The notes under the pieces were generated by a model. It worked only from the letters and a program-made list of their open reading frames with translations. It ran no database searches and was not told the DNA's origin. 64,000 bases of DNA from Asticcacaulis sp. MM231 (GTDB lineage: Bacteria > Pseudomonadota > Alphaproteobacteria > Caulobacterales > Caulobacteraceae). Each line of letters starts with the position of its first letter. Positions within the stretch are counted from its first letter, which is position 1. The position numbers were made by a program, and so were the translations under genes. This document shows positions 29,296-40,697 of this stretch, in pieces. Where the stretch lies: assembly GCF_964186625.1 (NCBI RefSeq), contig NZ_OZ075108.1, forward strand, positions 2,294,001 to 2,358,000, read 5' to 3'.

Positions 29296-32131
29296 CTAAT
29301 AGCTGTAGGCGAAGCGCAGGATGAAGTTGCGGCCCGGCTCCATATAGTCTTTCTGATACGACGGGCTCTTGCCCTTGGTGGTGTAATAGCGGTGACCATC
29401 GAGGATGTTCTGCACGTCGAAATCGACGCTCAGGCCCGAATGGATGTTATAGCGGGTGTGCAGGTCGAGCGATTTGTTCGGCTGCACCCACTTGTCGACC
29501 GCGTTATCGCGCAGGTCTTCGATGTACTTGCCCTGATACTGATAGCTCAGCTTGGCCTCGAAACCGTATTTCTGGTAGGTCAGCGAGGTGTTATAGATCA
29601 GGTTTGGCGCCTGAATAAAGGTGATCGGATCGCCCTTACGGTAGTCAAGGCCAGTCTCGGCTTCTGAGGTCTGCACCGTGATGTTGGCCTCGACGCCGAA
29701 GCCGTCAAACGGGGCGGCCAGGCCTTCAAACGACTTGATCAGGTTTAGTTCGACACCGGAAATCTTGGCGTCCTCGCCGTTCTTGGTTTCGATGATCTCA
29801 ACCGTGCCCTCCTGGGTGTTGGCATTGACCGAGGAGCCGTTGGTGAAGATGAAGTTCTTGATCGCCTTGTGGAACAGGCCGATCGACACGACGCTGGAAC
29901 GATCGGGGTAGTATTCCGCCGACAGGTCGAAGTTGAGCGCCTCAGCCGGCTTCAGATCGGGATTACCACGCTCGATGCGGGTGATCTCCTTGGTGATCTT
30001 GTCGCGTGTGATCGATTCGCCGCGGGTGATGTTTTCATATTCCGGACGCGAGAAGCTGGTCCAGATGGCGCCGCGATAGACCACATTGTCGCTGTGACGA
30101 TAGACGGCGGTGACGCTCGGCAGAAAATTGGAATAATCGGCCTTGGTGTTGGCGAAGTGCGAAACGCCGCCATTTTCGGTGTCTTCGTTGATCCAGCTTG
30201 TGTTGTCGACCTGGGTGTTCTCGAAGCGCGCACCGGCCACCACTTCCCAGTTACCGGACTTCATATTGGCCAGGGCGTAGGCCGCATAGATGGTTTCCGA
30301 ACCGTGCTTGTCGTCACCGTTCTGGTCGGCTTCCGAATAGGTGACCGGTGTTGCCTTCATCGCCGCGTCGATGGCAGACGTCACCTTGTCACGGCTCAGG
30401 ATAGCGCCGTAATAGTAGCGGCCGCCCAGGAAGCTATCGAGGCTGCGTTCGATCAGGCCCGATTGCTCCAGATTGCCGGTGTTGGCGATATCCCCATCCC
30501 ACAGTTTCGTCTTGTCATATTTGCGCTCGGATTTGGAGTACTTGACGCCTGCCTTGACGTAATCGACAAAGCCACCCAGATCATAACGCGCATCCAGCTT
30601 CAGCGCGGTACGGGCATCCGACTGCTCGTATTTTTCCAGCGACGCGCCGTCATATTGCAGCAGGCTGGCATCGGACTGGACCGTGCTGGCGAAAGCCGGC
30701 AGTTGCGGCAGAGGGAAGCGCGGATCGAAGGACGACCATAGCACACCGGTCGAGTTGAAGATCGGACCGCAATCCGCGTCTGCGTCGAGGTTCTTGCCAT
30801 CGCAATTGTAGCTAATGAAGTAATCGCCGTCGCTGCCCTTTTCACCATAGGAATAGCTGGCATCGTATTCGAGCGTCAGGGCATCCTTATGGGTTATGCC
30901 GCCGGCGTTGATCGTCGCCAGGCTGGATTTTTGATCCTGGGTCTGGAAGCTGCGGGCGAACTGCATCGCCTTCGGGTCCCATACGCCGGACCGGCCGGCC
31001 AGCGACCAGTAGGAGCTTTCGGTCGCGTCGGCATCGGTGATGATGCCATCGTCATCGGCATCGACGATCTGCGAGGTGGTGTAGCCATAGATATTGCCTT
31101 TGACCGGATCGGTGCCGGTGATCATACTTTCCGGCGCGCTGAGGCTGGTGTCGTCGATATTAGCCTGAGCCAGCCGTTTAGTCGGACGGCTGCGGAAATC
31201 GGTATAGTCATTAGTGCCGGTGCGATCGAGTTTGGCGAACTGTCCGCGCAGGTAAAGCTGAAGTCTCGTCGCCATGATAATCGAGCGAAAAATTGCCACC
31301 GTAACGCTCCTGCTCACCACGGCGGAAGTCGAGGTCGATACCTGGCAGGTACATAGAGCGTGAGTTGATGGCCTCCTCCGAATCCTTACGCCAGTGATAG
31401 GGCTCCCACTCACCGTCGTTCTCGGTTTCCTCGTTGGAATAGGCGGACTTGCCATAATACGCCGAGGCGAAGATGCCGAAACGGTTGGATTCACCGAACT
31501 TGCGGGCGAGATCGACCTGAAGCTGGCCACCATCGGCGCCCTCGCCGTTATCGGTGGCACGGTCGTTATGGGTAAACGCGCCGAATACACGCACCGTCGG
31601 CTTCTTGAAATCAAAGGCCGTGGGCGTGACGAAATTTACCGCACCGCCGATGGCGTCGCCATCAAGATCAGGCGTCAGGGTTTTGGATACCGAGATCGAC
31701 TTCAGGCCATTGGGCGGCAGGACCGTCATCGACATCTTACGGCTGGCGCTGTCGGTCAGGGCGACGCGAACACCATTGATCGAATAGGCGTTAAACGTGC
31801 CGGCCATGCCGCGCACCGAGACGTATTCGCCTTCACCGGTTTCCTGATTAACTACCACATTGACACCGGGAATGCGCGCCAGGGCGTCAGCCACGTTGGC
31901 ATCCGGCAGTTTGCCCAGATCGTCGGCCGAGATGACATTCACAACGCCGGTGGCTTTCTTCTGAGCGCCGATCGAGTTGGCGTTTGAGAGGCGCTGACCG
32001 GTCACAACGACCGTCGTCGGTTCTTCAGTGGTCTGCGCCGAATCCTGAGCAAAGGCACTGAGCGGCAAGGCACAGATCAGGGCCGCGACACTGGCCCCCA
32101 TAAATTTTGATTGAGAGGTTTGCGATGACAT
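29296..32131 (-). CDS. Large TonB-dependent receptor with GntR operator upstream, apparent frameshift
   Basis: An outer-membrane receptor of 944 residues once one base is removed. It has a signal peptide (MSSQTSQSKFMGASVAAL to SAFAQ), TTVVVTGQRLSNA, a plug domain with IPGVNVVVNQETGEGEYVSV-type sequence, and a barrel ending in NFILRFAYSY. The frame breaks at 31260-31265 (GAAGTC); taking out one A gives DYHGDETQLYLRGQFAKLD. The type is the TIGR01782-like family for oligosaccharides and organic compounds. A palindrome identical in design to the two in the phosphonate island lies 222 bp upstream, which suggests it imports a phosphonate- or phospholipid-related substrate. Substrate is inferred only. 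Confidence 0.88.
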
Positions 32132-32523
32132 GGGTGTTCTCCAACGGGTCCATAAGCCTGATAACGACGCTTCCTCTGACCACACGCCCGATAGGCGCGC
32201 CGGATCGTCACCCCATCCCGCTCCTGCCCCCCGCATGTCGTACAGGCGCAAGGGTTCGCACCTTCTGACACAGGACAGAATTCGATATGGACAGATGATG
32301 CCCAGGTCATGATTGTTAACAAGAAGCCGTTACTTCATGTCGCAAAATAAATCTGGTGTAAACCAGTTTATATAGATTTAAAAACATTATTTAATAACAA
32401 CAATTTATTTATAAAAATGTCACATTATAATGCTTTTCTGTAAGGCCGACCTTTGAGGCACGGCACCTCACGCAGCCGCCCCATAACGACTACTTGTTCT
32501 GAAAAATTCTATATTTTCAACCA
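32132..32523. other. Leader/promoter region of the TonB receptor
   Basis: About 390 bp with no credible gene. The part from 32300 to 32450 is very A/T-rich and holds the operator-like palindrome at 32353-32366. The rest shows no other feature I can support. A ribosome-binding site (GGAGAAC) precedes the receptor ATG at 32131. Confidence 0.55.
32353..32366. promoter_or_regulatory. GntR/HutC-type operator, copy 1 (CTGGTGTAAACCAG)
   Basis: Palindrome CTGGT-GTAA-ACCAG with the core GTnTAnAC known for HutC-subfamily GntR regulators. The same arms occur at 34079 and 34169. It lies upstream of the TonB receptor, within an A/T-rich stretch suitable for a promoter. Confidence 0.7.
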
Positions 32524-32622
32524 CTAGAGCGTATTCCGATCTGATTGGATCAGATCGGCGCTCTATTTTTTTGACGCGCTTTTTTATCCGAAAAATGCGT
32601 CACCCTTTTCGGAAAACGCTCT
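32524..32622. repeat. Dispersed repeat, copy 2, reaching into the GntR gene
   Basis: An inverted copy of the element at 14419-14525. It has TTCCGATCTGA-TTGGA-TCAGATCGG between AGAGCG and CGCTCT, then GACGCGCTTTTTTATCCGAAAAATGCGTC and the second palindrome half ending in CGGAAAACGCTCT (parts cited). The last about 23 bp encode the final codons of the GntR-family regulator on the minus strand. Confidence 0.85.
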
Positions 32623-33388
32623 CGCCGACGCGAATATCAACGCTGACCTTAAGCGCATCGTGACGCCAGTATTCCTGATCGTATTCGACCACGCGGCCTT
32701 GCGCATCGTAACTGATGCGCGTTACCAGCAGCCCCGGCAGGCCGGACTTGACGCGAAGAGCGGCGGCTTCCGCCTGCGTCAGCGCGCAGGGCTGCATATC
32801 GATGCGATTGCGTGCGACATCGACAACATATTCCCGTTTTAGCACCTGGGTGAGCGAGCCGTCGAGATCATGATCAAGCAGGCCAGGCGCCAGACGCGGA
32901 TCGACGTAGATGGTTTCAACCAGCACAGCGCGGTCATCGACATAACGGCGGCGGCGCAGTTCATAAAGCGTCGCGCCGGCATCAACGCCAAAGATGTCCG
33001 CCAAAGCCACCGTGGCCTGCACCTCACTGGTGCCGAGAAGTTCAGTCTTGGGATCACGTCCCTGCGCCTTCACATAGGACATGAAGCCTTCCCAGCGCGT
33101 CGGATCATAGACGATCGGCGCCGGCGACACATACCAGCCGCTACGCTCCTTGCGATAGATCAGCCCCTCGGCCTCAAGCTGGAACAGGGCGGCTCGCACG
33201 GTGCCGCGTGCCGCACCCGTGCCGCTCTGCAACTGGCGCTCGGATGGCAGGCAGGCGTTATGCCCCAGATCACCGTTTTCGATATGGGCGGCTATACTGT
33301 CACGCACCCCCAGATAATGGCGTGTATCGGCGCCATCAGGCAGATCCATCCACCAGTCTGGCCGGGCAAGCGATTTCTTCAGGGTCAT
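32600..33388 (-). CDS. GntR-family (HutC subfamily, UTRA) regulator of the phosphonate island
   Basis: A 262-residue regulator. Residues about 25-95 form a winged-helix domain (LPSERQLQSGTGAARGTVRAAL cited in part; GLIYRKERSGWYVS), followed by a UTRA ligand-binding domain (RRRRYVDDRAVLVETIYVD, LLVTRISYDAQGRVVEYDQE). UTRA proteins sense small metabolites, here plausibly a phosphonate. The three CTGGT-N4-ACCAG palindromes nearby fit the HutC consensus, so they are its likely sites. The last seven residues and the stop (ESVFRKG) are encoded by a dispersed repeat. The gene follows the HD oxygenase gene by 59 bp. Confidence 0.88.
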   Translation of the reverse strand: MTLKKSLARPDWWMDLPDGADTRHYLGVRDSIAAHIENGDLGHNACLPSERQLQSGTGAARGTVRAALFQLEAEGLIYRKERSGWYVSPAPIVYDPTRWEGFMSYVKAQGRDPKTELLGTSEVQATVALADIFGVDAGATLYELRRRRYVDDRAVLVETIYVDPRLAPGLLDHDLDGSLTQVLKREYVVDVARNRIDMQPCALTQAEAAALRVKSGLPGLLVTRISYDAQGRVVEYDQEYWRHDALKVSVDIRVGESVFRKG

Positions 33389-33447
33389 GCAGGTCGAGTT
33401 CCGGCGGTCAGTTCAAGGCACCACCTGCATACGCGACTCGCGGCAGC

Positions 33448-34044
33448 TTACCTAGCCTTCTCATCGAGCAGTGACCGGATCATCGGCGCATAGCTGGCGA
33501 AGGCCGGCATATCGGCGCCGACCACCTTGCCCAGTTCGTCATATTTCCGCAATTGCATGGCCGCGTCATGCCAGGGATCAGCCAGAAAGGCGTCGACCTC
33601 GTCCGGATCCATGATACCGCCCTGCAGCACGAAGCTTTGCAGGGAGGCTTCACTCAACCCTTCGATATAAGAAGGGTTCGTCGTCGCCAGATAACGCTTG
33701 GCGCTGACGTGCAGCGCTATCGGCGCGGTCACACTCGGCGGCAGGATGCGCGCCAGCCAACCTGAGCCAATGCGCTCATGTCGCGTGTCGATACCACGGT
33801 CGGCGGCATCTTCGCCGAACTTATGCAACAGGTGGCCGATGTCATGCAGCAGGGCCGCAATAATCAAAGCGTCATCAGCGCCGTCTATATGGGCGTGATA
33901 GGCGCATTGCTCGGCATGTTCGCGCTGACTGATGTCCTCGCCGTAGTGATCGTCGCCGCGTGTTGCGTAGAGGTGGAGGATATTATCAACACTATCGGAG
34001 GCAGCGGCAGGCTCAGGCGACAGGGCAAGGTCAGGCAGGGACAT
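33448..34044 (-). CDS. PhnZ-like HD-domain phosphonate oxygenase
   Basis: A 198-residue HD-domain protein of the group found in phosphonate degradation operons (TIGR03276-like), related to the mixed-valent di-iron oxygenase PhnZ. Visible are DDHYGEDISQREHAEQCA (with the Tyr/Glu and first His), the metal motif ALLHDIGHLLHKFG, RHERIG and the HVSAKRYLATTNPSYIEGLS block with substrate-contacting Lys/Arg. PhnZ cleaves the C-P bond of alpha-hydroxylated phosphonates. No 2-oxoglutarate hydroxylase (PhnY/TmpA) is present in the window, so it may use a naturally hydroxylated phosphonate. It is read before the GntR gene and has an operator 35 bp upstream. Confidence 0.82.
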   Translation of the reverse strand: MSLPDLALSPEPAAASDSVDNILHLYATRGDDHYGEDISQREHAEQCAYHAHIDGADDALIIAALLHDIGHLLHKFGEDAADRGIDTRHERIGSGWLARILPPSVTAPIALHVSAKRYLATTNPSYIEGLSEASLQSFVLQGGIMDPDEVDAFLADPWHDAAMQLRKYDELGKVVGADMPAFASYAPMIRSLLDEKAR

Positions 34045-34078
34045 TAAGACTTACTCGGTTTGAAAGGCATCAGCTTAT

Positions 34079-34092
34079 CTGGTCTATACCAG
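34079..34092. promoter_or_regulatory. GntR/HutC-type operator, copy 2 (CTGGTCTATACCAG)
   Basis: Arms CTGGT and ACCAG with a CTAT spacer, matching the GTnTAnAC core of HutC-type sites. It is placed 35 bp upstream of the HD oxygenase start and 90 bp from copy 3, in the divergent intergenic region. Confidence 0.8.
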
Positions 34093-34168
34093 AGAGATTG
34101 TCCAAGAACAAACGCCAAATGGCCGCAGTTAAAAATGTCACAAAAATTTAAAACTACGCCTCCCGTCA

Positions 34169-34182
34169 CTGGTCTATACCAG
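34169..34182. promoter_or_regulatory. GntR/HutC-type operator, copy 3 (CTGGTCTATACCAG)
   Basis: Identical to copy 2. It ends 27 bp before the phospholipase C start, where binding would block RNA polymerase or its passage. This supports repression of the plus-strand operon by the local GntR regulator. Confidence 0.8.
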
Positions 34183-34209
34183 ATCAAATTCCGCTGAAGG
34201 GGCCTGATC

Positions 34210-36375
34210 ATGACCAAGACACCTGCATTCGACGCCAGCCGCCGCCAGCTTCTGCAAATGGCCGGTGCGGGCATAAGCCTGGCTTCGCTTGCCTCGCTGC
34301 AAAAAGCGATGGCCACGCCGGCGCATAATGTCAGCGGCACCCTCATGGATGTCGAACACGTCGTTATCTTCATGCAGGAAAACCGGGCCTTCGATCATTA
34401 TTTCGGCACCTTCCCCGGTGTCCGTGGTCAGGGCGATCCGCGCCCCTTGCGCCTGCGCAACGGCCATAGTGTCTGGCGTCAACCGAGCGACCAGCACCCC
34501 GACGGTTTCGTGCTGCCTTACTGGGCGGATTCCAAAACCGCCAATGCCTATGTCGTCGATGGGGCCGATCAGGGCCATGACGCCGCCACCATCATCGTCA
34601 ATGGCGGCCACTACGATCAGTGGGGCGTATCAAAGCAACTGCAAAACCGCGTGACGCACTACAAGGCGTCAGACCTGCCGTTTTACCATGCGCTGGCCGC
34701 CAACTTCACCATCTGCGACGCCTACCACTGCTCGACCCTGACCCAGACCTACCCGAACCGTCTGCATCTTTGGACGGGCTGCAATGGCGCGGGCGCGGTC
34801 GGCGGCGAGCCGGTGCTTTCCAACTACGGCGAAGACGAAACGCCATCGGCCGACATGGCCGAGGACCGGCCGATCAAGGCCTATGAATGGACCACCTATG
34901 CCGAGCGCCTGGAAAAGGCCGGCATCAACTGGAAGGTCTATCAGGAATACGACAATTTCGGCGACAACATCCTGTCGGTTTTCAAGCCCTTCCGCCCGTG
35001 CGACAAGACCTCGAACCTTTATAAGCGTGGCCGCTCATGGGTTTCGGAAACCAAACCGGCGCCCGACCGCACCCGCTCGGATGGCCAGCAACTGGTCGAG
35101 GCTTTCCGTGCCGATATCGCTAACGGCAAACTGCCGCAGGTGTCTTGGATCGTCACCGCCGCCGCGCTTTCCGAGCATCCCAGTTGGACACCGGCCGACG
35201 GCGAGAACGTCTGCGCCAAGCTGATCGAGGCCCTGACCGATCATCCGGAGGTTTTCGCCAAGACCGCCTTCATCATCAATTACGATGAGGCCGGCGGACT
35301 ATATGACCACATGCTGCCGCCGATGCCGCCCGCCGACGAGACACAAGGCTATAGCGGTGTCAACGTCGCCGGAGAGTTCAAGGACTACGGTCACGAAGCG
35401 GGCAAACCCAATCAGGGGCTGCAACCGCTCGGACTCGGCATACGCATTCCGGCCATGGTCATCTCGCCTTGGAGCCGTGGCGGCTTCGTCTGCTCCGAAG
35501 TCTTCGATCACGTCTCTACCATCAAGTTCATGGAAAAGCGCTTTGGCGTGATGGAACCGAATATCAGCGCGTGGCGTCGCGCCATCAGCGGTGATCTGAC
35601 CTCGGCCTTCGATTTCAAAACACCCAACCGGGACTTAAGCCAGCTCAACCTGCCCTCGACAGACGATTACAAGGCGCGCCTGCTCCACGCCAGTCAGCAG
35701 CCTTCTCTGAAGATTCCCGACGTACAGGCCGCTGGCGGCCAGCCGGCGCAGCAGCGTCCGGCGCGGCCGCTCCCCTATGCCGTCAGCGCCAATATGCGTC
35801 AGGTCGAGCGCAACCTTCTGATCGATCTCATCAACAGCGGCAGCAAGGCCGCCGTCTTCACCATCCACGATTACGGCCCCTATGCGGTCAATGGCCCGTG
35901 GCGTTATACGCTCGATGCCGGTCAGAGCCATACCGCCGGCCACTGGAATAACAATGATCGCGAAGTCTACGATCTGGCCCTACATGGCCCGAACGGCTTC
36001 TATCGCCATTTCGTTGGTCGCCTGCGTGACGATGACAAGCTCACACCCGATCCGGTCTCCGTTACCCTGCGCGAAGACAACGCCATGGGCGAACTGGTCG
36101 TCACCCTGCAAAACGCTGGCGGCAAGCAGGCCATGCTTAGCTTAGCCTTTGATCCGCGTTATGCCCGTGGCAATCTTCTGCCTGCCCACCGCGACATCGT
36201 GCTGGCATCGGGTGAGACGCAAACCCTGCGCTTCAATCTCAGCCCGGCCGATCACTGGTATGATCTCAGCCTGACCCTGGCCGACACCCCCGGCTGGCTG
36301 CGTCGTTACGCCGGTCATATCGAAACCGGCAAGGCCAGCCGTACCGATCCCGGCATCGGCGCGATGGTTATCTGA
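34210..36375 (+). CDS. Tat-exported non-haemolytic-type phospholipase C
   Basis: A 721-residue phosphoesterase (PF04185-type, PlcN/PlcH-like). The N-terminus has a twin-arginine signal (SRRQLLQMAGAG, then a hydrophobic run to AMA). The catalytic domain begins with VEHVVIFMQENRAFDHYFGTFPG, cited in part, and continues with AYHCSTLTQTYPNR and INYDEAGGLYDH. Two C-terminal beta domains (about 520-710; NGPWRYTLDAGQSHTAGHW) are those usual in bacterial PLCs. It should act in the periplasm or outside, cutting between glycerol and the phosphorus of lipid head groups. It overlaps the FAD oxidase gene (TGATG), which couples it to phosphonate breakdown. Confidence 0.9.
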   Translation: MTKTPAFDASRRQLLQMAGAGISLASLASLQKAMATPAHNVSGTLMDVEHVVIFMQENRAFDHYFGTFPGVRGQGDPRPLRLRNGHSVWRQPSDQHPDGFVLPYWADSKTANAYVVDGADQGHDAATIIVNGGHYDQWGVSKQLQNRVTHYKASDLPFYHALAANFTICDAYHCSTLTQTYPNRLHLWTGCNGAGAVGGEPVLSNYGEDETPSADMAEDRPIKAYEWTTYAERLEKAGINWKVYQEYDNFGDNILSVFKPFRPCDKTSNLYKRGRSWVSETKPAPDRTRSDGQQLVEAFRADIANGKLPQVSWIVTAAALSEHPSWTPADGENVCAKLIEALTDHPEVFAKTAFIINYDEAGGLYDHMLPPMPPADETQGYSGVNVAGEFKDYGHEAGKPNQGLQPLGLGIRIPAMVISPWSRGGFVCSEVFDHVSTIKFMEKRFGVMEPNISAWRRAISGDLTSAFDFKTPNRDLSQLNLPSTDDYKARLLHASQQPSLKIPDVQAAGGQPAQQRPARPLPYAVSANMRQVERNLLIDLINSGSKAAVFTIHDYGPYAVNGPWRYTLDAGQSHTAGHWNNNDREVYDLALHGPNGFYRHFVGRLRDDDKLTPDPVSVTLREDNAMGELVVTLQNAGGKQAMLSLAFDPRYARGNLLPAHRDIVLASGETQTLRFNLSPADHWYDLSLTLADTPGWLRRYAGHIETGKASRTDPGIGAMVI

Positions 36376-37466
36376 TGAACGCGTCTTACGATGTGGCGAT
36401 TGTCGGCGGCGGCATCGTCGGACTGGCTCACGCCTATGCCGCCATCAAATCCGGCCTGAAGGTGGCGCTGTTCGAGCGTCACCCGCAGGCGCTTGGCGCC
36501 TCGATCCGCAATTTCGGCTTTGTCACCGTTACCGGGCAACAGTGCGGCGAGTTTCATGCGCTGGCCATGCGGGCGCGTGATCTCTGGCTGGAAGTCGCGC
36601 CGCAGGCCGGCATCGCCGTCGAGCAGCGCGGTCTCTATGTCAGCGCGCGCTATGCCGAATCGGAAGCGGTGTTGCGCGCCTTTATTGATACCGAAATGGG
36701 CGAAGGCTGCCGCCTGATGGCGCCTGCCGAAGCGCCTTTCCTGGCCGATGGCCAGCGGCTCGTCCTGCACTCACCTCACGATATCCGCGTTGAATCGCGC
36801 ACCGCCATTCCGAAGCTCAGCGCCTGGCTCGGCGAACGCGCCGCGCTGCATTACGGCGTATCGGTTACCGGCATCGACAGTGGCAGGCTGGAAACCTCGA
36901 TCGGCACGATTCTGGCCGAACGCATCATTGTTTGCCCCGGTGATGACCTTAATGGCCTGTTCGCCGATCGCATCAGGGCCGCACACATCTCACGCTGCCA
37001 GTTGCAGATGCTGCGCCTGGCCGATCCCGGCTTTCGACTGCCCGGCGCGGTCATGTCCGATCTCAGCCTGATCCGCTATCTCGGCTATGCCGACCTGCCC
37101 GAAGCCGCCGCGCTGAAAGCCCGCCTGCACGCCGACCACGCCGAACATCTGGCGCAAGGCGTCCACCTGATCGTGGTTCAGAGCGCCGATGGCTCGCTCG
37201 TGGTCGGCGACAGCCATGTCTACGGCGACGGCCCTCTGCCTTTCGCCTCCGAGGCCACCGACCGGCTTATCCTTGATGAATATCACGCCGTTCTGGGCGC
37301 GCCCCCGCCGATCATTGAGCGCTGGACCGGCACCTATGCCGTGGCGCCCGACCGTCTCTATCTCATCGATACCCCCATGCCGGATGTCCGGCTGGCCATC
37401 GTCACCTGCGGCGCGGGCGCGTCTACCGCCTTCGCCATCGCTGAAAAAACCTTCTCCACCTTCTGA
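36375..37466 (+). CDS. FAD-dependent oxidoreductase of phosphonate clusters (TIGR03364-like)
   Basis: A 363-residue DAO-fold flavoprotein with the dinucleotide motif VAIVGGGIVGLAHAYAA, the block GASIRNFGFVTVTGQ and a C-terminal FAD segment RLAIVTCGAGASTAFAIAE. This group is found beside phosphonate genes and resembles glycine-oxidase-type amine oxidases. The likely reaction is oxidation of 2-aminoethylphosphonate or an N-methyl derivative to phosphonoacetaldehyde, the substrate of the next gene's enzyme. That is inferred from context and fold. It replaces the transaminase PhnW, which is absent here. Confidence 0.8.
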   Translation: MNASYDVAIVGGGIVGLAHAYAAIKSGLKVALFERHPQALGASIRNFGFVTVTGQQCGEFHALAMRARDLWLEVAPQAGIAVEQRGLYVSARYAESEAVLRAFIDTEMGEGCRLMAPAEAPFLADGQRLVLHSPHDIRVESRTAIPKLSAWLGERAALHYGVSVTGIDSGRLETSIGTILAERIIVCPGDDLNGLFADRIRAAHISRCQLQMLRLADPGFRLPGAVMSDLSLIRYLGYADLPEAAALKARLHADHAEHLAQGVHLIVVQSADGSLVVGDSHVYGDGPLPFASEATDRLILDEYHAVLGAPPPIIERWTGTYAVAPDRLYLIDTPMPDVRLAIVTCGAGASTAFAIAEKTFSTF

Positions 37467-37473
37467 GGCACTC

Positions 37474-38307
37474 ATGACTTCTCCCATCAAGGCGTTCGTA
37501 TTCGACTGGGCCGGCACCATGGTCGATTTCGGCAGCATGGCGCCGGTGCGCGCCCTGCAATCGGTCTTCGCTCTGGAAGGCATCGACCTGTCCGCCGCCG
37601 AGGCCCGCGCGGACATGGGCATGGCCAAACGCGCCCACATCACCGCCATACTCGGCCGCGAACCGATGCGCACGGCCTGGCGTGAATTGAAAGGCGCAGA
37701 GGCCGCCCCCGCCGATATCGACCACCTGTTCGAGGCTATCGGCCCCTTGATGGAACAGGCCGCCACCGAATGCGCCGTCATCATCCCCGGCGCGGTCGAT
37801 CTGGTGACCCTGCTGCGCTCCAAAGGCGTCCGCATCGGCTCCGGCACCGGCTACAGCCGCGAGATGATGCGCGGCATCCTGCCCAATGCGGCGGCGCAGG
37901 GCTATGCGCCCGATCTGGTCGTCTGCGCCGGGGAAACCGCCGAGGGACGTCCCTCGCCGCTGATGACGTGGAAGGCGATGGTAGATCTTGGCGTCTGGCC
38001 GGCGCGCGCCTGCGTCAAGGTTGATGATGCCACGGTCGGCATTAGCGAAGGCCGCGAAGCCGGCGTCTGGACCATAGGCGTGGCGGCCAGCGGCAATGGC
38101 GTCGGACTCGATTTCGCCGACTTCAATGCCCTGTCACACGATGATCGCATAAGCCGTGTAGCGGCATCTGCGGATGCCTTGCAGGCGGCCGGTGCGGATT
38201 ACGTTGTGAACAGCGTCGCCGATATCGCGCGCCTGCTGCCTGAAATCGAAGAACGTATTGCCTCCGGTGAACGTCCCGGCGTCCAAACCGACCCTATCCG
38301 GCCTTAG
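37474..38307 (+). CDS. phnX: Phosphonoacetaldehyde hydrolase
   Basis: Phosphonatase of the HAD superfamily, which splits phosphonoacetaldehyde into phosphate and acetaldehyde. The 277-residue protein has the nucleophile motif AFVFDWAGTMVDFGS, the Schiff-base Lys in the cap (MGMAKRAHI), SGTGYSREMM and KVDDATVGISEG. ATG at 37474 is 8 bp after the FAD oxidase stop. It gives the biochemical anchor of the whole island. Confidence 0.93.
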   Translation: MTSPIKAFVFDWAGTMVDFGSMAPVRALQSVFALEGIDLSAAEARADMGMAKRAHITAILGREPMRTAWRELKGAEAAPADIDHLFEAIGPLMEQAATECAVIIPGAVDLVTLLRSKGVRIGSGTGYSREMMRGILPNAAAQGYAPDLVVCAGETAEGRPSPLMTWKAMVDLGVWPARACVKVDDATVGISEGREAGVWTIGVAASGNGVGLDFADFNALSHDDRISRVAASADALQAAGADYVVNSVADIARLLPEIEERIASGERPGVQTDPIRP

Positions 38308-38316
38308 GAGCCTTAC

Positions 38317-39621
38317 ATGAGCAGCATCGACGCCCCCCTGACCACGTCGGGTAAACTCTCCGGTTTTCAGGGATGGCTGGCCAAGGCACCGCCGGCGGTC
38401 TTTGCCCTCTATGGCGGACTGATGGCGTTCGGCGCCTATTTCGCCATGTACGCCTATCGCAAGCCTTTCGCCGTGGCAAGCTTCGCCGATGTGGCCGGGT
38501 TCATCGTCGATTACAAAATCGCTCTGGTCATCTCGCAGGTCTTTGGCTACGCGCTCTCCAAGGTCATCGGCGTCAAGGTCATCTCCGAACTGCCGGGGCG
38601 TTACCGCGCCATCGCCATCCTGCTGCTGATCGGCTTTGCTGAGCTGATGCTGGTGGCCTTCGCAGCTGTGCCCGCGCCCTACAACATCGCCGCCCTGTTC
38701 TTCAATGGCCTGTCGCTCGGTCTGATCTGGGGGCTGGTATTCGGTTTTTTAGAAGGCCGCCGCGTCTCGGAAATTCTCGGCTCCATCCTGTGCGCCAGCT
38801 TCATTGTCTCGTCGGGCGTCGTTAAATCGGTCGGCAAATGGGTTATGCTGCAAGGCATCGCCGGCGAATTCTGGATGCCGGCGGTCACGGGTCTGATCTT
38901 CGCCCCGCTTCTGCTGATCTGCGTGCTCGGCCTGTCGCAACTGCCGCCCCCCTCACCCGAAGACGAAGCCGCCCGTATCGTGCGTGCGCCCATGAACAAG
39001 GCTGCGCGCAAGGCCGCCTTTTCCGCCTTCGCGCCCGGCCTGATCGCCCTCGTCGTGATCTATGTTGGTCTGACAGCCCTGCGCGATTTTCGTGACAACT
39101 TCGCTGCTGAAATCTGGACCGATCTCGGCTTCAAGGACAGCGCCAGCATCTTCACGGTATCTGAACTGCCGATCGGTATCGTCGTGCTCTGCGCCATGGC
39201 GCTGCTCACCGTTTTCCGTAACAACCGTATGGCCTTCCTGGCCAATCTCGTCATGATCGGTATTGGCCTGGTGTTAGCGGGCGCGTCCACCTTGGCTTAT
39301 CAGGCCCATTTGCTCGGTCCGGTAACGTGGATGGTGCTGCTCGGCGGCGGTCTCTATCTCGCCTATACGCCGTTCAACGGCCTGTTGTTCGACCGCTTCT
39401 TTGCCGCCAGCGGCATGGTCGGTACGGCCGGCTTCCTGATCTATGTCGCCGACGCCAGCGGCTATCTCGGCTCGACAGCCTTGCTTCTGTTCAAGAATTT
39501 CAGCGGCCTGACCCTGCCGTGGACGCAATTCCTCATGGGTGCGGCCTACGGCACGGCCGGTTTGGGCTTGATCCTGCTGGTCTGGAGCAGCGTCTATTTC
39601 AGTCGCCGCCTCAAGGCCTAG
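38317..39621 (+). CDS. DUF5690-type MFS transporter
   Basis: A 434-residue inner-membrane protein with about twelve helices. The sequence near residue 30 (LYGGLMAFGAYFAMYAYRKPF) and GYALSKVIGVKVISEL resemble DUF5690, a branch of the major facilitator superfamily. As the last gene of the phospholipase-FAD-phnX operon (10 bp gap) it is a good candidate for uptake of the phosphonate across the inner membrane, in place of an ABC transporter. Substrate is inferred from context only. Confidence 0.78.
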   Translation: MSSIDAPLTTSGKLSGFQGWLAKAPPAVFALYGGLMAFGAYFAMYAYRKPFAVASFADVAGFIVDYKIALVISQVFGYALSKVIGVKVISELPGRYRAIAILLLIGFAELMLVAFAAVPAPYNIAALFFNGLSLGLIWGLVFGFLEGRRVSEILGSILCASFIVSSGVVKSVGKWVMLQGIAGEFWMPAVTGLIFAPLLLICVLGLSQLPPPSPEDEAARIVRAPMNKAARKAAFSAFAPGLIALVVIYVGLTALRDFRDNFAAEIWTDLGFKDSASIFTVSELPIGIVVLCAMALLTVFRNNRMAFLANLVMIGIGLVLAGASTLAYQAHLLGPVTWMVLLGGGLYLAYTPFNGLLFDRFFAASGMVGTAGFLIYVADASGYLGSTALLLFKNFSGLTLPWTQFLMGAAYGTAGLGLILLVWSSVYFSRRLKA

Positions 39622-39638
39622 CAGGATCACTTGAGACA

Positions 39639-40697
39639 TTAAGACGCCGAGGGCTGATAGACCGGCTTGCCCTTGGCGACGATGGCGGACCATTGCCCGC
39701 GCACCATCGATTTCACCGTCTCCGGCATCGGCACGTAATCCAGTTCGGAAGCATTGCCATCGCCCTTGGCATAGGCCCAGTCGAAGAATTTCAGCACCGC
39801 TGCCCCCTTGCCGGCATCGGCCTGCTCCTTGTGGATCAGGATGAAGGTGGCACCGGTGATCGGCCATGTGCCTTCGCCCGGCTGATCGAGCAGCAGAAGA
39901 TAGTTGCCCTTGGCGCTAGTCCAGTCGGCGCTCGCCGCGGCAGCCGCAAACGACGCGCCGCCGGGTGCGGGGAACTGACCGGCCTTGTTGCGCAGAACCG
40001 CATAGGCGCCACCGGTTTTCTTGGCATAGGCGTATTCGACGTAGCCGATGGAACCTTCGGTTTGCTTGACGAAGGCCGCGACACCATCATTGCCCTTGCC
40101 GCCAAGGCCCACCGGCCACTCCACCGTATCAGAGCCGCCGACCTTTGACTGCCATTCCGGCGATTGCGACGACAGGTAGGTGGTAAACAGGAAGGATGTG
40201 CCAGAACCATCGGAGCGGTGGACGACCGTGATCGGCGTGGCCGGCAGTTTGACGTCAGGGTTCAGGGCAGCGATGGCGGCATCATTCCACTTGGTGACCT
40301 TGCCGAGGAAAATGTCGGCCAGCAGTGCACCGGTCAGCTTGAGTTTACCAGGCTCAACACCCGTCAGGTTGACGATGGGCACGATGCCCCCCATGACCGT
40401 GGGGAACTGGTAAAGCCCGGCCTTGTCGAGTTCTTCCGGCTTCAAGGGCTTGTCGGTGGCGCCAAAATCAACGGTATTGGCCTCGATCTGCTTGATGCCG
40501 CCGCCGGAACCAATGGCCTGATAGTTCAACTCAGCGCCGCCCGTCGTCTTATATTGTCCTGCCCATGCCGTATAAAGCGGTGCGGGGAAGGTAGCGCCGG
40601 CGCCTGAGATCTTGGCTGCCGATTGCGCCGGCTTGTCCGGATTGCTACACGCGGCCAGCGACATCATAAAGGCCAGGGCGAGGACTTTTTTCAACAC
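39639..40697 (-). CDS. pstS: PstS-like phosphate-binding lipoprotein
   Basis: A 352-residue periplasmic phosphate-binding protein with a lipobox (LAACS). Family motifs are ISGAGATFPAPLYTAW, YQAIGSGGGIKQI, VDFGATDKPL, HRSDGSGTSFLFT and GSIGYVEYAYA, whose Ser/Thr/Asp/Arg residues bind phosphate. GTG start 40697 with GGAGAG six bases upstream. pstCAB are not beside it. It converges with the DUF5690 gene, so the phosphonate island ends in a high-affinity phosphate capture gene. A possible half Pho box (CTGTCAC) near 40758 is weak. Confidence 0.9.
   Translation of the reverse strand: MLKKVLALAFMMSLAACSNPDKPAQSAAKISGAGATFPAPLYTAWAGQYKTTGGAELNYQAIGSGGGIKQIEANTVDFGATDKPLKPEELDKAGLYQFPTVMGGIVPIVNLTGVEPGKLKLTGALLADIFLGKVTKWNDAAIAALNPDVKLPATPITVVHRSDGSGTSFLFTTYLSSQSPEWQSKVGGSDTVEWPVGLGGKGNDGVAAFVKQTEGSIGYVEYAYAKKTGGAYAVLRNKAGQFPAPGGASFAAAAASADWTSAKGNYLLLLDQPGEGTWPITGATFILIHKEQADAGKGAAVLKFFDWAYAKGDGNASELDYVPMPETVKSMVRGQWSAIVAKGKPVYQPSAS

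Follow-up and report, generated by a model that had tools for sequence, protein, structure and literature searches.

The 64,000-nucleotide stretch of the Asticcacaulis sp. MM231 genome analyzed here (contig NZ_OZ075108.1, positions 2,294,001 to 2,358,000; referred to as the window) contains an island of genes associated with catabolism of 2-aminoethylphosphonate (AEP), in which a phospholipase C and a TonB-dependent receptor accompany phosphonate-degrading enzymes. All of the named genes were confirmed in the window from a list of open reading frames (ORFs) together with Pfam and NCBIfam profile searches (Table 1), in agreement with the genes, order, overlap, and 7-9 bp gaps given in a preliminary description of this DNA. 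A four-gene operon on the plus strand encodes the phospholipase C, an FAD oxidase, phosphonoacetaldehyde hydrolase (PhnX), and a DUF5690 carrier; the first two genes overlap by 1 base and are followed by gaps of 7 bp before the PhnX gene and 9 bp before the DUF5690 gene. Genes for an HD-domain oxygenase and a GntR family regulator are divergent from this operon. The host genome is 4.65 Mb in size and its nearest named relative is A. benevestitus (L038), with 91-100% protein identity. Most of the island genes form one unit, a phosphonate island that is conserved and co-regulated, and the phospholipase and the outer-membrane receptor are integral to it.

Table 1 Features of the phosphonate island and its flank, in window coordinates (cut-offs are those of the named family models)
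Feature	Position	Strand	Evidence
TonB-dependent receptor gene, two frames	29296..32251	-	Pfam Plug + TonB_dep_Rec, TIGR01782 halves
Operator CTGGTGTAAACCAG upstream of TonB receptor	32353..32366	.	Pattern search of genome
GntR/UTRA regulator, PhnR-like	32600..33388	-	Pfam GntR + UTRA; TIGR03337 251.1 bits (cut-off 296.75)
HD-domain di-iron oxygenase, PhnZ/TmpB kind	33448..34044	-	TIGR03276 205.5 bits (cut-off 214.6); alignment to 6npa, 4mlm
Operator CTGGTCTATACCAG, 34 bp before HD oxygenase start	34079..34092	.	Pattern search of genome
Operator CTGGTCTATACCAG, 27 bp before phospholipase start	34169..34182	.	Pattern search of genome
Phospholipase C, distinct clade; predicted phosphonolipid phospholipase C	34210..36375	+	TIGR03396 711.9 bits (curated cut-off 580.25); clade-fixed residues; PlcN/PlcH-type fold
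FAD oxidase, TIGR03364/PbfD type	36375..37466	+	375.5 bits (cut-off 285.1)
PhnX, phosphonoacetaldehyde hydrolase	37474..38307	+	TIGR01422 321.7 bits (equivalog cut-off 220)
DUF5690 carrier with major-facilitator fold; presumed importer of AEP	38317..39621	+	PF18943 507 bits; model pLDDT 83
PstS	39639-40697	-	Convergent with plus-strand operon

Association of the phospholipase with phosphonate genes is conserved across Caulobacterales, so the island passes the refutation test set in the preliminary description, which was a lack of conserved co-occurrence in relatives. Among 398 genomes of this order, 37 encode a TIGR03364 oxidase over cut-off. Phospholipases belonging to the same clade as the island enzyme were found at 15 places in 13 genomes (61-100% identity, with the next best at 46% and below); two candidates were scored per genome, so these copy counts are lower bounds. 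Every one of these 13 genomes belongs to the 37 with the oxidase (hypergeometric P of 4e-15), and by genus, all five island genera are among the 13 of 59 that have it (P ~3e-4), although the genomes are related and these P values serve as guides rather than exact values. Neighborhoods were compared with those of phospholipases C outside the clade, termed ordinary here, using flanks that extended ~9 kb or stopped where the contig did (7 kb for L179 in G300). The HD oxygenase gene was near 13 of the 15 clade places but only 2 of the 56 ordinary places (Fisher 2e-10), while the FAD oxidase and PhnX were both near 10 of the 15, with the oxidase near 2 of the 56 ordinary places (G191 and G211; Fisher 4e-7). 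The HD oxygenase accompanies the phospholipase at least as consistently as PhnX does. The same TonB receptor was near 11 of the 15 clade places (one partial, one being the broken copy in the window), as was DUF5690. A PhnR-like regulator was present at 10 of the 15 places, and the remaining five had a LysR regulator of the AEP type; the best family for the latter is TIGR03339, below cut-off in the two that were scanned, and the other three were assigned by clustering. The 56 ordinary places comprise 54 fetched regions plus G191 and G211, which were reached from the oxidase side; those at G229:C145, G317:C259, G346, G215, and G006 are outside the count, and the clade place in G176, which spans two contigs, was counted once.

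Gene order and strand vary among Asticcacaulis, three further genera (g2, g4, and g6), a genus from another family (g13), and two Sphingomonas (L044 and L047). A gene set that stays largely constant while its order varies is what selection for joint function would be expected to produce. In a second family, represented by 96 genomes, three new clade phospholipases were identified, each with an HD oxygenase gene directly downstream (3/3), and these three out-of-sample loci had no oxidase, PhnX, or same TonB receptor nearby. No clade phospholipase was found in the five genomes of the G720 family. Members of the clade thus occur in four or more families of Alphaproteobacteria (f1, f3, f9, and that of Sphingomonas). 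A second type of island, consisting of LysR, TonB receptor, HD oxygenase, and clade phospholipase genes, lacks both the oxidase and PhnX (L134, L135, and L136).

A shared DNA element, which emerged when promoters of PhnR-bearing islands were compared, also ties the island genes together. The 14-base palindrome CTGGTNTANACCAG occurs three times in the window and in none of 100 shuffles, and these are the only three sites in the whole genome. One precedes the TonB receptor gene and two lie between the HD oxygenase and phospholipase genes. In A. benevestitus and A. taihuensis, three of three sites are likewise in the island, and a reversed-pattern control yielded 0, 1, and 0 sites in the three Asticcacaulis genomes. 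S. azotifigens has a single strict site, also in its island. With the looser pattern TGGTNTANACCA, 28 sites were found in 13 of the 15 PhnR-type island loci (none in L047 and L098), compared to none in the 8 island loci without PhnR and none in the 1.21 Mb covered by 65 loci of ordinary phospholipases. Five sites were found in 48 oxidase loci without a clade phospholipase, all of them in the three loci whose PhnR is 62-68% identical. In the g2 genus, the phospholipase/PhnR promoter and the FAD oxidase/DUF5690 promoter each contain one site, and the element is therefore common to both halves of the island. These conservation and operator patterns are far from random expectation. Because the operator occurs only in loci having a close relative of the regulator, we infer that the two are paired, and the PhnR-like GntR protein is presumed to bind the palindrome. 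The best family for this regulator is TIGR03337, although its score is under the cut-off. No published operator for PhnF or PhnR was found in the literature searched; mycobacterial PhnF reportedly binds a similar palindrome. Inspection of three promoters by eye gave no convincing PhoB boxes.

The island phospholipase passes the curated cut-off for phosphocholine-specific phospholipase C, and its structure model has a PlcN/PlcH-type fold according to a fold search. Its N-terminus is twin-arginine-like (SRRQLLQ, by eye). In an alignment of the clade, Q121, H123, Q179, Y181, A361, and G362 are present in 21 of 21 members and V130 in 19 of 21. The clade thereby departs from ordinary enzymes, which have H121, an aromatic residue at 123, W130, N361, and D362 in 61 of 61 sequences, but the catalytic-site set of E57, N58, T180, D359, and E360 is retained in all 82 clade and ordinary sequences. 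These counts exclude ordinary L143, L175, L178, and L179 (in-frame stops or short contig) as well as L144 and L147 (<600 aa), and the clade alignment leaves out the split G176 copy and L034, which is the same record as L112. Since the clade has swapped several residues that are invariant in 61 ordinary enzymes, the label "phosphocholine-specific" appears doubtful for its members. The MM231 genome encodes three phospholipase C paralogues, and only the island copy has the altered residues. The two ordinary-type paralogues (G000:C1:1313819-1315828 and G000:C2:285624-287693) have no island genes within ~9 kb. G362 is common to at least 118 homologue clusters (the homologue set was 120 minus two of 650 aa or shorter). 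The phospholipase clade probably deserves its own name.

The residues by themselves do not point to the substrate that the clade would favor. The solved relative 8yk5 is a glycerophosphoethanolamine phosphodiesterase, so the fold can accept a head group resembling ethanolamine; AEP is the phosphonate analogue of such a group. We considered the replaced residues as a lost choline cage and dropped this idea, since the ethanolamine-type 8yk5 has the same residues as ordinary enzymes. The change in the clade therefore points to a shifted pocket, with no direction of preference given by 8yk5.

PhnX, which the preliminary description took as the anchor for phosphonate catabolism, scores well above the equivalog cut-off, and a phosphonate-catabolic unit is supported. 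When aligned to solved PhnX structures, it retains the DWAGT motif and the lysine, which we take to be catalytic. The mechanical ORF begins at 37189, but the ATG at 37474 fits both the gap to the preceding gene and the family match. The FAD oxidase passes TIGR03364, the family under which PbfD1 of A. baumannii is annotated (PMC10590968). PbfD is described as converting AEP and N-methyl-AEP to phosphonoacetaldehyde and is thought to replace PhnW (PMC10574752, PMC10590968). No PhnW was over the TIGR03301 cut-off in any of the 16 island genomes, with weaker matches in six, and the MM231 genome had no match at E 1e-20, which agrees with the earlier suggestion that the FAD oxidase stands in for PhnW.

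The HD oxygenase is nearest to TIGR03276 but scores below the cut-off of that family and also misses that of TmpB (300). It aligns to TmpB (6npa) and PhnZ (4mlm) with candidate metal ligands retained. Residues that we take to be these ligands are present in 20 of 20 island sequences (H43, H67, D68, and H112 were counted, others were judged by eye), and the HD oxygenases of L134-L136 lack the loop glutamate. PhnZ acts on the R form of 1-hydroxy-2-aminoethylphosphonate (R-HAEP), usually together with PhnY*, a partner of the PhyH type. No PhyH matches were found in the islands of the 16 genomes, in a search that did not extend to hydroxylases of the TauD type (TmpA kind), and 6 of the 16 genomes had no PhyH match at all at E 1e-5. 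The three PhyH proteins of the MM231 genome were rejected as a PhnY-type partner for the HD oxygenase, as none is encoded nearby; one is similar to ectoine hydroxylase, with a score far below cut-off, and the other two had no NCBIfam match at E 1e-5. It is reported that R-HAEP is not properly processed by PhnW-PhnX, that it was first isolated from Acanthamoeba polysaccharide, and that HAEP occurs in Bdellovibrio lipids (PMC8154272).

The TonB receptor listed in the preliminary description is present, but not as one frame. It is split into overlapping frames at 31211-32251, encoding the signal peptide and plug, and 29296-31614, encoding the barrel. The homologous gene at L038 in A. benevestitus consists of one uninterrupted 997-aa frame, which means that the window copy either is frameshifted or carries an assembly error. 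The same receptor (54-97% identity) is encoded beside the phospholipase in relatives. The DUF5690 protein is modeled as a major-facilitator fold, with its best fold match to SLC37A4 of the SLC37/G6PT organophosphate transporters, and other major-facilitator families are within 2 Z units. A text search of largely open-access literature found no paper on DUF5690. A PhnU2-type permease, the one type of ATP-binding cassette (ABC) importer searched for, was not over cut-off in any of the 16 island genomes, consistent with the earlier view that the DUF5690 carrier is in place of an ABC importer. PstS, which had been counted as part of the island, is better left out of it. Among 72 loci it adjoins the island in just two, those of the window and of the near-identical A. 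benevestitus, there is no operator site by it in the window, and it looks like a bystander.

Coupling of the phospholipase to the phosphonate genes is strongly supported. We interpret the island as a single regulon for obtaining phosphorus, and also nitrogen, from lipids with AEP or HAEP head groups, a reading to which we give a probability of roughly 0.5. Such a regulon would probably be controlled by the PhnR-like GntR regulator. The phospholipase C, predicted to be exported, would cut the lipid to release an aminophosphonate head group, either AEP or, probably, HAEP. The TonB receptor may then carry a lipid fragment or the head group through the outer membrane, with the DUF5690 carrier presumably moving AEP or HAEP into the cytoplasm. 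There, the FAD oxidase would convert AEP to phosphonoacetaldehyde, which PhnX would hydrolyze to acetaldehyde and phosphate, while the HD oxygenase would convert HAEP to glycine and phosphate with no hydroxylase encoded alongside it in the island. The HD oxygenase would be the steadiest neighbor of the phospholipase because outside HAEP freed by the phospholipase would supply it. The further proposal that clade members represent a novel type of phospholipase C, acting as a phosphonolipase on aminophosphonate lipids, that together with the TonB receptor and HD oxygenase makes up a dedicated, hydroxylase-free system for consuming phosphonolipids, HAEP lipids included, is tentative, with odds slightly short of even.

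Several observations weigh against a regulon dedicated to phosphonolipids. Two of the 15 clade places have no HD oxygenase nearby and five have no oxidase. The strict operator is missing from 11 of the 16 island genomes, and in G318 its single site is away from the phospholipase islands. The receptor gene of the window strain itself is broken. The loop at 361-366 of the phospholipase model, where two of the replaced residues are located, has a pLDDT of <50, and 8yk5 retains the ordinary H-x-W, W, and D-G pattern. PlcH is reported to be active on phosphatidylethanolamine (PE) and phosphatidylglycerol as well (PMC8634861). The hydroxylase search covered PhyH, with the TauD type outside it. In the 96-genome family, the contrast between clade and ordinary copies is less clean because ordinary copies are also near PhnX there, with 6 of 11 ordinary phospholipase regions within 11 kb of it. 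Some islands contain genes for ordinary phosphatases, either PhoD-like or metallophosphatases (L107 and L134), which fits a general role in phosphate-ester use.

Alternatively, the island could be a general organic-phosphorus kit, in which the phospholipase cuts ordinary phospholipids (for example PE, giving phosphoethanolamine) and is under an aminophosphonate-sensing regulator because both phosphorus sources co-occur. The enzyme does belong to a phospholipase family with a relative that takes glycerophosphoethanolamine, the G362 of the clade is also found in the non-specific plant enzyme NPC4, some islands have the PhoD-like and metallophosphatase genes, and in two species PstS is next door. 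We nevertheless regard this explanation as unlikely, given that of the three paralogues in the same genome only the one with altered residues is in the island, that just 2 of 56 ordinary copies in Caulobacterales are near the oxidase, and that no phosphoethanolamine-consuming enzyme was recognized among the recurring genes when these were viewed by eye, with no dedicated search. The receptor suggests another source, in that it might import phosphonate-decorated oligosaccharides or a lipophosphonoglycan, as in Acanthamoeba, with the enzyme acting as a phosphonodiesterase that trims sugar esters of AEP or HAEP. A large TIGR01782-type TonB receptor is indeed present at 11 of the 15 Caulobacterales places, R-HAEP is described as coming from an Acanthamoeba polysaccharide (PMC8154272), and altered residues need not imply a lipid head group. 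On the other hand, the enzyme family is known for lipids, and no glycosidase was recognized by eye among the recurring genes of 23 loci, which makes a phosphonoglycan substrate rather improbable. It is very improbable that the phospholipase and receptor merely adjoin an AEP operon by chance. Gene order does differ between genera, but the set is kept despite this reordering, the operator is shared and is confined to the island in three Asticcacaulis genomes, and the three out-of-sample cases again had the HD partner.

Comparison with described systems places the island near AEP phosphonatase clusters (phnWX with Pbf or PhnZ genes), with which it has in common PhnX, an oxidase of the TIGR03364/PbfD kind, and a GntR or LysR regulator. 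It differs in having no PhnW and in the added phospholipase C and TonB receptor. PhnZ homologues are reported in 15 of 1,186 phnWX clusters (PMC8154272), and replacement of PhnW by an FAD oxidase has already been published (PMC10574752). Relative to phosphocholine-specific phospholipase C (TIGR03396; PlcN 9gy2 and PlcH 9gye), the island enzyme is a separate clade with fixed replacements and a link to phosphonates, and the ethanolaminephosphodiesterase for glycerophosphoethanolamine from Streptomyces sanglieri (8yk5) has the ordinary residues that this clade replaced. An HD di-iron oxygenase with conserved ligands is shared with the PhnY*/PhnZ and TmpA/TmpB pathways, although the island lacks a PhyH-type hydroxylase and its HD protein scores under both cut-offs. 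AepP, a GlpT-related AEP permease from Pseudomonas putida BIRD-1, is likewise described as a major-facilitator carrier beside phosphonate genes (PMC8316502), but DUF5690 is a Pfam family of its own. The island would be a variant of known AEP catabolic clusters, with a phosphonolipid substrate as the most likely reading.

As the preliminary description supposed, no described operon with this exact set appeared among the matches listed in a search of largely open-access literature. None of the listed papers connected phospholipase C to phosphonatase genes or to the breakdown of phosphonolipids by bacteria. In two of the four papers that mention both phospholipase C and phosphonoacetaldehyde hydrolase, the phospholipase appears as a citation on lipid remodeling in one and as the plcP marker gene in the other. 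The words "phospholipase" and "TonB" are absent from the main text of the Pbf papers checked, and "phospholipase" is likewise absent from further phosphonate papers checked. AEP catabolism is well studied, yet the bacterial release of AEP from lipids seems to have been little addressed. Phosphonolipids are said to be made in abundance by protists of the soil (PMC9311074), and a phosphonolipid regulon would account for the use of this overlooked store of phosphorus by soil and water bacteria. PhnZ-type oxygenases that have no PhnY partner would likewise gain an external supply of HAEP from it. Furthermore, the specificity label is called into question for the at least 118 homologue clusters with G362, of which those carrying the label are an uncounted subset. 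The enzyme clade, receptor, carrier, and putative regulator-binding site can each be tested.

Phospholipases C were also found with phosphonate genes in other arrangements. At L202-L204, three of the six ordinary regions near PhnX in the 96-genome family, PhnX is 1.5-2.5 kb from an ordinary phospholipase C. At L202, the locus of the three that was scanned, the genes run from a PhnU2 permease (607.9 bits, cut-off 593.25) through PhnX, PbfA (624.7 bits, cut-off 525), and phospholipase. Here too a phospholipase C is part of an AEP/HAEP operon, but the island has DUF5690 and the HD oxygenase rather than an ABC permease and PbfA, and the residues of the L202 phospholipase are ordinary. Phospholipase C seems to have been recruited separately into such an operon here, and L202 counts as an independent case in favor of the phosphonolipid reading. 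In a third arrangement, at L080 (G191) and L092 (G211), an ordinary phospholipase is near the FAD oxidase, PhnX, and DUF5690. The two ordinary copies near an HD oxygenase gene are those of G211 and G300, and in the latter a distance of 6.9 kb separates the copy from the HD gene that belongs to the island. This G300 copy (L179, G300:C1:1358219-1360027) has one in-frame stop. At L107 and L108, an additional gene lies between the clade phospholipase and the FAD oxidase, and the one at L107 matches Metallophos (PF00149). PhoD and TetR genes are also nearby at L107, and the L134 island includes a PhoD-like protein. Lastly, a DeoR/GlpR-like regulator recurs at L085, L090, L096, and L194-L196, with L194 identified by scanning and the rest by clustering or by eye.

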